Source: an uncultured Spirochaetia bacterium (GTDB lineage Bacteria > Spirochaetota > Spirochaetia > CAKZLE01). From it: a stretch of DNA of 64,000 bases. Below are positions 14,204 to 16,976 of the stretch, one piece after another; position 1 is the first letter of the stretch, and each line of letters starts with the position of its first letter. The notes under the pieces were generated by a model, which did no database searches, was not told the origin of the DNA, and saw only the letters and a list, made by a program, of their open reading frames with translations. The stretch is taken from assembly GCA_937125225.1 (NCBI GenBank), contig CAKZLE010000034.1:62001-126000 (forward strand). Reading direction: 5' to 3'. A program made the translations under genes and the position numbers.

Positions 14204-15817
14204 CTAGTTCTTCTTAGCATGGTCGATGCTTGCTTTGATGAATCCTGCAAACAACGGATGTGGGTCGATCGGTGTGGATTTGAATTCCGGATGGAACTGG
14301 ACTCCAACACCCCAGGGGTGATCCTGCCATTCTACTGACTCGACGAGTTCCCCCTCAGGGGTGAATCCGCTGATCACCAGACCGGCATCTCCTAATGTGT
14401 CACGATACTTGTTGTTGAACTCATATCGATGTCTATGTCTTTCGAAAATGATCTCGTTGTTGTAACAACCTTGGATCTTCGTGCCTTGTCTCAAGTGAGA
14501 CTCACTCTTTCCGAGTCGCATCGTACCACCCATCTCTGTCACATCAAGCTGCTCTTCTAACAGACTGATTACAGGATTGTTGGTCTCTGGTTTGAACTCG
14601 GTGCTGTCTGCATCTGCAAGTCCCAGGACATCACGTGCATACTCGATCACCATGATCTGCATGCCGAGACAGATACCGAAGCAGGGGAGTTTAGCCGTTC
14701 GGCAATACTCTGCTGCTTTGAGCATACCCAAGACTCCACGTGTCCCGAATCCACCGGGGATCAGTACCCCCTCTATTCCACTGAGCTTCTCTGCAAGCTC
14801 TTCGGGAGAGATGTTCTCGAGGGTCTCAGAGTCGATCTTCACCAACTCGACTTTTGCCTTATTAGCGAATCCACCATGTCTAAGTGCCTCATAGATCGAC
14901 TTGTAGGAGTCAGGAAGGTGGATATACTTACCCACGATACCGATCTTTACCGTCTTCTTCGCATTCTTGCAGATATCGACCATCTCAGTCCACTTCCTGA
15001 GATCCGGTTCACCTGCATGCAGTTTCAACTTCTCGACGACGATGTCATCGACACGCTGTTCTCTGTAGACTAATGGAAGTTCATAGATCTCTTTTAGATC
15101 ATAACCTACGATGACTGCATCCTTCTTCACGTTCGTGAAGGAGGAGATCTTGTGGATCATATCGCTCTCGAGCATGACCGGTGCTCTACAGATGAGGATA
15201 TCTGGTTGGATACCGACCTCTCTGAGCTCTTTTACTGAATGCTGTGTTGGTTTCGTCTTGAGCTCTCCACCACCAACCTCGGGAACGAGGGTAAGGTGAA
15301 CGAAGAGTACGTTCTCTGAACCAAGATCGTTGGCCATTTGTCTTGCAGCCTCTAGATAGGGGGTAGACTCGTAGTCACCTACGGTCCCTCCGATCTCTAC
15401 GAGGGTGACATCGACACCAGGTCTCTTACCTACAACAGAGATTCTTCGTTTGATCTCGTCGGTGATATGAGGGATGATCTGAACAGTTCTTCCAAGATAA
15501 CGACCTTCTCGTTCCTTGCTGATGACTGCTTGATAGATCTGACCAGTCGTGATGGAATTCTCTTTTCGAATTGTCGCTCGGGTGAACCTTGCGTAACTTC
15601 CAAGATCGAGGTCTGTCTCTGCTCCGTCATCTGTGACGTAGACCTCTCCATGCTGATAGGGACTCATCGTACCCGCATCTACATTGAGGTAGGGGTCGAT
15701 CTTTATCATTTGTATGGTCAATCCTCTGCTCTCGAGCAGGTTGGCTAAAGAGGTTGCAGTTAACCCCTTTCCAAGACTTGAACATACACCGCCGCTGATA
15801 AATATGTATTTCTTCAT
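14204..15817 (-). CDS. pyrG: CTP synthase
   Basis: Converts UTP to CTP with glutamine and ATP. 537 residues, usual length. The N-terminal synthetase domain begins MKKYIFISGGVCSSLGKG (P-loop), followed by the C-terminal glutamine amidotransferase with Cys in CFGICLGMQ and the His-Glu pair in FHPEF. The frame is open far upstream to 16021, but that part overlaps the small RNA gene and its terminator. The start at 15817 fits both the family and the promoter. The next gene, lptC-like, starts 28 bp on. Confidence 0.97.
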   Translation of the reverse strand: MKKYIFISGGVCSSLGKGLTATSLANLLESRGLTIQMIKIDPYLNVDAGTMSPYQHGEVYVTDDGAETDLDLGSYARFTRATIRKENSITTGQIYQAVISKEREGRYLGRTVQIIPHITDEIKRRISVVGKRPGVDVTLVEIGGTVGDYESTPYLEAARQMANDLGSENVLFVHLTLVPEVGGGELKTKPTQHSVKELREVGIQPDILICRAPVMLESDMIHKISSFTNVKKDAVIVGYDLKEIYELPLVYREQRVDDIVVEKLKLHAGEPDLRKWTEMVDICKNAKKTVKIGIVGKYIHLPDSYKSIYEALRHGGFANKAKVELVKIDSETLENISPEELAEKLSGIEGVLIPGGFGTRGVLGMLKAAEYCRTAKLPCFGICLGMQIMVIEYARDVLGLADADSTEFKPETNNPVISLLEEQLDVTEMGGTMRLGKSESHLRQGTKIQGCYNNEIIFERHRHRYEFNNKYRDTLGDAGLVISGFTPEGELVESVEWQDHPWGVGVQFHPEFKSTPIDPHPLFAGFIKASIDHAKKN

Positions 15818-15825
15818 GTAAGTGA

Positions 15826-15854
15826 AGTATAATGAAAAGCTTTTTATTACGCAA
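15826..15854 (-). promoter_or_regulatory. promoter of pyrG, apparently leaderless
   Basis: TTGCGT (15849-15854), 17 nt, TATACT (15826-15831), then 8 nt to the ATG. No ribosome-binding site and no room for a pyrG-type attenuator leader. Confidence 0.55.
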
Positions 15855-15877: not shown

Positions 15878-15919
15878 AAAAGAACAGAGAAAAGGGATCC
15901 CCAAACTGAGGATCCCTTT
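15878..15919 (-). terminator. strong rho-independent terminator
   Basis: A perfect 10-bp stem AAAGGGATCC/GGATCCCTTT (15891-15919) with a 9-nt loop, followed on the minus strand by a T-rich run. It ends the small RNA transcript before the pyrG promoter. Confidence 0.85.
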
Positions 15920-16087
15920 GAAAGTATAGCTAAACATGAATAAGGAGGAAAAAGGATTGAAAGTACACCTCTTGCTAGTAGCATGGTACATGCTATGAAA
16001 CAAACTAGCAGTTATGATCAATTAATTATAAAGCCCTTTCGGGGCGATTCACCTTCTAAAAAAGTGTTTCTCGTTTGATCCTTCCTT
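15878..16087 (-). ncRNA. candidate structured small RNA, about 210 nt
   Basis: A promoter (16094-16122), no convincing reading frame, and a strong terminator define a free-standing transcript. It can fold into a closed structure: the 5' end (16078-16087) pairs in two 5-bp blocks with 15942-15957; 16059-16070 pairs over about 12 bp with 15959-15973; inside lie hairpins GCCC/GGGC (16033-16045) and GCTAGT.../...CTAGC with a nested TAGCATG/CATGCTA (15974-16009). The long closed rod with an open middle is reminiscent of 6S RNA, but I cannot identify its conserved sequence. The 3' strand includes CCUCCUU, able to pair with Shine-Dalgarno sequences. 4.5S RNA, tmRNA and RNase P RNA do not fit. Confidence 0.55.
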
Positions 16088-16093
16088 GATTTG

Positions 16094-16122
16094 AATATAC
16101 ATTCTTCTAGTTTGAAAAGCAA
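16094..16122 (-). promoter_or_regulatory. promoter of the small RNA
   Basis: TTGCTT (16117-16122), 17 nt, TATATT (16094-16099), giving a start near 16087. Confidence 0.65.
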
Positions 16123-16184
16123 GCAAATCTGTAATAATTACAATTAATAAAAAAGTGTAATAATCCCGGTAGGATATAGTTGAA

Positions 16185-16976
16185 TTACAAGTCTATATCG
16201 AGGAGGTCAGCAGCTTCTGTTGAGAAGACCGCTAGGGGAGCTCTCTGCCTGTCATGATACTTCAGGAATCTAGTGACGATCGGGGAGAGACGGTATTTGA
16301 TAGCTCTTGCTGAGGTCGGACAGACTTTGACACAGGCAAAGCAACGAAGACAGACCGACGGATCGATGGAGAAATCTCGGCTAGAGATGGAACTCACCGG
16401 ACAGGCTTTGACACAGAGTCCACATGAGATGCACAACTGATCATCTACCTTTGGGACTTTTGTGAGGATCTTTGCACTATCAGTAGGCATGAGAAGACTC
16501 ATGAGGGCACGTTTTTTTGGGGTGGTCCCTCCAACTAGCTCACATCTTCTCATATCTCTCAGGTCCTGTTCATCTGGTCTTCCAAAAGCCAGTGGTGCTT
16601 TATCTGTAGAGAAGGAGTGGTGTGCCGGTGCTGCGATACTACAGAATGGGGTGAGCCCCATACCTCTAGCGATCTGTTCGAGTTGATACAGAGCAGCACC
16701 GTACTCTACCTGGCCATAACTGACGAGAGTGACTGTCGGGATAGCATCTCCAGATATTGAACGGAATCTCTGTGCTGCGGTCTCTGGTATAGTCCCTTCA
16801 TAGACTGGGGCTCCGAGAACTATGAGATCCCCGGTAAGTTCGACCTTCTGTGTACTCGTGGTCATATCGATCAGAGAGATTTGAGCTTCGGGGTATCTTG
16901 AACAGAAGGCTTCGATATAGCTCTTCGTACCACCGGTCGGGGAGAAGAATACGGCCTGAATATGTCTAGGAGTCAT
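16185..16976 (-). CDS. EFR1-family flavodoxin-ferredoxin fusion
   Basis: 263 residues. An N-terminal flavodoxin-like domain (FFSPTGGTKSYIEAF, FMN phosphate loop; LVSYGQVEYGAALYQL) is joined to a C-terminal two-cluster ferredoxin: CISCGLCVKACP and CLRCFACVKVCP. This is a cytoplasmic electron carrier typical of anaerobes; the partner is unknown. Last gene of the unit that begins with the YmdB-like protein, 3 bp after the phosphoesterase gene. No terminator follows directly. Confidence 0.85.
   Translation of the reverse strand: MTPRHIQAVFFSPTGGTKSYIEAFCSRYPEAQISLIDMTTSTQKVELTGDLIVLGAPVYEGTIPETAAQRFRSISGDAIPTVTLVSYGQVEYGAALYQLEQIARGMGLTPFCSIAAPAHHSFSTDKAPLAFGRPDEQDLRDMRRCELVGGTTPKKRALMSLLMPTDSAKILTKVPKVDDQLCISCGLCVKACPVSSISSRDFSIDPSVCLRCFACVKVCPTSARAIKYRLSPIVTRFLKYHDRQRAPLAVFSTEAADLLDIDL

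Follow-up and report, generated by a model that had tools for sequence, protein, structure and literature searches.

A noncoding locus upstream of pyrG in an uncultured spirochaete may encode a PerR-controlled small RNA that shares its 3' module with a peroxiredoxin mRNA

What is encoded in the noncoding interval that separates a ferredoxin gene from pyrG in an uncultured Spirochaetia bacterium? The interval lies on the minus strand of a 64,000-nucleotide stretch of DNA, hereafter called the window, and is flanked on the same strand by a gene for a flavodoxin/2[4Fe-4S] ferredoxin (EFR1-like; 16185-16976) upstream and by the CTP synthase gene pyrG (14204-15817) downstream. An earlier note had placed here an orphan, structured small RNA gene with a clean promoter, nested long-range pairing, a terminator, no credible reading frame, and a likeness to 6S RNA. 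The terminator is readily recognized as a strong minus-strand stem-loop of 13 pairs, AAAGGGATCCTCAGTTTGGGGATCCCTTT (15919-15891), followed by TCTCTGTTCTTTT. The predicted RNA is about 200 nt in length (15887-16087), with its start inferred 7 nt past the -10 element and its end in the T run, and the functional unit as a whole starts with an operator at 16143 and extends to about 15887. Within this RNA, no start codon combines a usable Shine-Dalgarno sequence with a closed frame, in agreement with the earlier note, and the frame that runs into pyrG meets a stop in the relative described below, so a small protein was rejected. A repeat or mobile element was also rejected, since the stretch is unique within its genome, as was tmRNA, which was found on another contig. 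Judged by its sequence, the gene is real: it has its own promoter, an intrinsic terminator, and no credible ORF, the combination by which small RNA genes are recognized, and it would presumably be transcribed.

The predicted fold is less distinctive than it first appears. Compared with shuffled sequences, the whole RNA yields a z score of -3.35 with the terminator and -1.40 without it, whereas the 5' part alone yields -2.23, so it is chiefly the terminator that makes the fold exceptional. The nested long-range pairing proposed earlier is partly borne out, in that a closing helix (16087-16079 with 15949-15942) receives pair probabilities of about 0.46-0.85 in the fold model, but the exceptional stability does not derive mainly from this pairing. 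The 5' part of the RNA (15969-16087), which contains hairpins at 16066-16050, 16045-16033, and 16009-15974, is lineage-specific and cannot be aligned with the corresponding unit of the relative. A CCUCCUU stretch is present and is paired within the fold model. When the Rfam families were scanned, as the earlier note had recommended, the locus produced only sub-threshold chance matches, even at E values up to 10.

A more informative result emerged from searches for homologous DNA, which were made in 60 relatives and then in 395 genomes of the class. Convincing homology was found only in 'Spirochaetia bacterium Tobar13m-G40' (JAIPFY010000001.1), a member of the same family and another genus, where it occupies the syntenic place; the other class members searched gave chance matches only. 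The gene order in this relative is ferredoxin, operator and promoter, a 1-Cys peroxiredoxin of 217 amino acids, the conserved block with its terminator, and pyrG. The conserved module (15881-15967, 83% identity, E values of 1e-15 to 3.5e-16) therefore forms, by position, the 3' end of the peroxiredoxin mRNA, directly after the stop codon, and no ORF precedes the copy in the window. The description of the gene as an orphan is consequently only half true, since in the sister genus its 3' part closes the transcription unit of a peroxiredoxin.

The genome of the window retains both flanks of the peroxiredoxin unit without the ORF. An ortholog of the relative's peroxiredoxin was not found in this genome, where the best match anywhere is 28%, and the interior of the locus (16092-15970) shows no resemblance to the relative's peroxiredoxin unit, given that 334 of 1000 shuffled sequences align as well. 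A peroxiredoxin remnant inside the RNA was rejected for this reason. With two genomes compared, the difference would reflect either loss of the peroxiredoxin in the window's lineage or its gain in the other. In a more distant relative (L027), YmdB-like and RseC-like genes are joined directly to pyrG, and the phosphoesterase, ferredoxin, and RNA seen in the window are not present there.

Between the two genera, the PyrG proteins are 86% identical, while the fourfold-degenerate sites of pyrG are 34% identical, which is to say saturated. Set against this background, the 83% identity of the noncoding 3' block indicates that the block has been under constraint, probably at least until the ORF was lost. 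The terminator stem is nearly the same in both genomes, and the two genomes are the only ones among those searched that carry the module. A conserved TATACT within the block was considered as a second promoter and was rejected, as no conserved -35 element lies at the proper distance.

The upstream signals likewise connect the locus to peroxide defense. A near-perfect palindrome, TTGTAATTATTACAG (16129-16143), has the form of a PerR-type operator and is the sole match in the window, where 0.17 would be expected at up to one mismatch. The promoter that follows (-35 TTGCTT, 16122-16117; 17-nt spacer; -10 TATATT, 16099-16094) falls below the 9/12 consensus threshold used for scanning, yet by synteny it corresponds to the peroxiredoxin promoter of the relative. 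From the operator to the -10 element the two align without gaps, with 34 of 50 positions identical, and their local similarity was matched by one of 1000 shuffled sequences. Similar boxes of the palindromic 7-1-7 form are found near the promoters of peroxide-defense genes: at the same place before the relative's peroxiredoxin, upstream of its Fur-family gene (perR), and, in the window's genome, immediately ahead of a rubrerythrin gene with the orthologous perR behind it. The best NCBIfam match of the regulator encoded in the window's genome is PerR, at 112 bits and hence below the cutoff of 180, and its best PDB match is the PerR protein of Bacillus subtilis (2fe3). The alignment retains all five of the residues H37, D85, H91, H93, and D104 of the B. 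subtilis protein, the metal ligands of PerR.

Because the box also precedes the rubrerythrin-perR genes and the regulator keeps all five ligand residues, peroxide control of the small RNA by PerR is likely. The box is centered at about -49, upstream of the -35 element and not across the promoter, which leaves repression uncertain, and both the binding of PerR to the operator and the sign of its effect are predictions. Allowing two mismatches at most gives 29 box-like sites against 14 in the control, only about twice as many. The box, rubrerythrin, and perR constitute an operon in the window's genome (L142; G000:C2:78471-79564), and in the relative perR follows the box without an intervening rubrerythrin ORF. 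Perfect 15-base palindromes of the PerR type occur at two further places in the window's genome (L138, G000:C29:3509; L140, G000:C34:16095), one ahead of a gene whose exported product is fimbria-like, the other close to where a large gene for a predicted lipoprotein begins; these could be additional members of the regulon or chance occurrences.

The conserved module also contains what appears to be a base-pairing region. Its putative seed, UCAUGUUUAGCUAUACUU (15922-15939), is identical in both genera and mostly unpaired in the fold model. When both genomes were searched with the seed-complement pattern, one match other than the RNA itself was common to the two: the complement AAGUAUAGCUAAA, at the extreme 5' end of orthologous mRNAs transcribed from a TTGACA-17-TATAAT promoter. 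In both genomes, therefore, a conserved and mostly unpaired seed has its complement in an mRNA leader, as is characteristic of base-pairing small RNAs. The encoded product is an exported, beta-rich, porin-like protein, for which a weak, sub-threshold match to Porin_3 was obtained in the relative only.

The proposed duplex consists of two collinear parts. In the first, UGUUUAGCUAUACUU pairs with positions +1 to +15 of the mRNA, and in the second, a C-rich stretch of the small RNA, UUCCUCCU (15943-15950), pairs with the Shine-Dalgarno sequence AGGAGGAA and the start region. The earlier remark that CCUCCUU might bind ribosome sites was therefore useful. In the fold model, the C-rich stretch pairs with the 5' end of its own RNA. 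Cofolding energies (ddG) are -25.8 kcal/mol in the window's genome and -25.6 kcal/mol in the relative. A helix of 5 bp beside the seed reads UAUUC/GAAUA in the former and UGAUC/GAUUA in the latter, with all five pairs kept through one double-sided change and one change to a G-U pair.

How unusual such a match is must be considered with care. By duplex and cofold energy, the target leader ranks first among 396 leaders sampled from 464 kb of the window's genome and first among 389 sampled from about 420 kb of the relative's, but these ranks are biased and partly expected because the target had been chosen by a pattern search of the whole genomes. By seed energy alone, it stands about sixth among 30,864 windows in the 464 kb. 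Shuffled seeds gave a perfect 13-base match in three of 300 trials over the 396 leaders (about 1%), which corresponds to roughly 7-8% for the whole genome, and a 13-mer is shared within one in 13 pairs of orthologous leaders. As a rough estimate, a conserved target match would arise by chance about 1% of the time, with the second site not counted. The conserved pairing is also not fully independent evidence, since the region around the start of the target gene shows strong conservation. In this 5' region (L161/L158), the DNA of the porin-like gene is almost identical between the two genomes despite the saturated synonymous sites of pyrG, as expected for a very highly expressed gene.

These observations can be assembled into a mechanism. 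Peroxide would inactivate PerR, whereupon the promoter at 16122-16094 would produce the RNA of roughly 200 nt. Its 3' module, comprising the seed (15939-15922) and the C-rich stretch (15950-15943), would pair with the leader of the porin-like mRNA, where the seed would cover positions +1 to +15 and the C-rich stretch would cover the Shine-Dalgarno sequence and start region, and translation of this envelope protein would be blocked during oxidative stress. In the sister genus, the same module would serve as the 3' UTR of an mRNA for peroxiredoxin under PerR control, the coding part of which is missing here. We put the chances at about even that the RNA is a trans-acting, PerR-controlled, base-pairing small RNA and hence a noncoding arm of the peroxide response. 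The fuller account is more tentative, and we would currently wager against it as a whole: the two genomes would represent two stages in the separation of a small RNA gene from its parent mRNA, as a 3' UTR in one and without the ORF in the other, with both forms silencing the same porin-like protein through a two-site duplex. Repression of this target is itself predicted from the complementarity.

A different history might explain the same remains. If the peroxiredoxin gene was deleted, then the promoter, 3' UTR, and terminator could persist without function, and the block in the relative would be a 3' UTR and terminator and nothing else. This possibility is unlikely, though it deserves serious attention, as the window's genome has the two ends of the peroxiredoxin unit but no ORF, the stretch that separates them shows no relation to the relative's unit, and the form lacking the ORF is found in one genome only. 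The operator, -10 element, seed, and terminator have nevertheless stayed intact while neutral sites became saturated, an argument that a recent deletion would escape. Furthermore, a bare 3' UTR leaves unexplained why an invariant, unpaired stretch of 18 bases complements the same leader in both genomes.

Base pairing by the RNA would account for that stretch. Alternatively, the stretch could be a DNA element such as a protein-binding site, with a further copy where the porin-like gene begins, or a chance match, with the RNA acting in some other way. The near-exact complement is common to both genomes at a single place besides the RNA itself, and its seed energy is not rare, so neither idea is unreasonable. 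We consider them rather improbable, however, because the copy in the window is not situated in a recognizable promoter, and because the collinear second complement to the ribosome-binding site and the pair-preserving flanking helix are better accommodated by RNA pairing.

The position of the RNA directly upstream of pyrG, with a terminator at its end, invites comparison with a cis-acting leader or attenuator. A CTP-sensing GGGC start is known for Gram-positive pyrG, but this start is absent here, and in the relative the block sits behind peroxiredoxin. Moreover, pyrG has a separate promoter downstream of the terminator (TTGCGT-17-TATACT, 15826-15854) that ends 8 nt before the ATG, so the RNA is not expected to be a pyrG leader, and we regard this role as very improbable. 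A similar promoter precedes pyrG in 13 of 16 scored spirochaete loci and in one or two of the scored non-spirochaete loci. The pyrG start in the window has no Shine-Dalgarno sequence. In the spirochaete loci of this type (L028, L029, L032-L037, L040, L044, L045, L047, and L049, together with the window), a sigma-70-type promoter ends 6-10 nt before the ATG and a Shine-Dalgarno sequence is likewise absent; the pyrG mRNAs of many spirochaetes are apparently leaderless, a type of mRNA that is common in Leptospira (PMC5243855).

The notion of a 6S RNA, or of a second one, is scarcely credible despite the similar length, closing helix, and open middle, given that RF00013 is unmatched at this locus even at an E value of 10, that the only relative does not conserve the 5' part, which includes the 5' side of the closing helix, and that genuine 6S genes exist on another contig of the window's genome (G000:C26:76439; 47.8 bits, above the gathering threshold) and in the relative, with an alignment of these two 6S loci extending over some 3.2 kb (68%). 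What stands of the earlier note is its structured small RNA gene between the ferredoxin unit and pyrG, a reading that is supported by the homologous promoter and terminator parts and by the conserved 3' module.

The proposed small RNA would have parallels in better-known systems, although we do not assign it to any named RNA family. OxyS is a peroxide-induced small RNA, and MicA and RybB are sigma-E-dependent small RNAs that pair with mRNA leaders and thereby repress outer-membrane proteins; all three differ from the RNA described here in their regulators and sequences. CpxQ, the 3' UTR of cpxP in the Cpx response (reviewed in PMC9438474), is likewise the noncoding arm of an mRNA induced by stress, with its seed and terminator at the 3' end and with envelope-related targets. 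CpxQ, however, arises by processing of an mRNA and acts together with Hfq, whereas the unit in the window has its own promoter and no coding part, and no sequence relation is claimed. Among spirochaetes, the noncoding RNA rh859 of Leptospira interrogans lies beside a peroxidase gene (ccp), and its level goes up on exposure to peroxide and when perR is mutated (PMC7567364). It resembles the RNA in the window as a PerR-affected noncoding RNA next to a peroxidase gene, but no target is known for rh859, and the likeness is one of description.

The origin of stand-alone small RNA genes is an open question, for which a pair consisting of one mRNA-bound form and one form without an ORF offers a testable case. 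In Leptospira, noncoding RNAs that depend on PerR have been described, though without established functions (PMC7567364), and if the proposal is true, it would add to the spirochaetes a peroxide-responsive small RNA with a predicted target.
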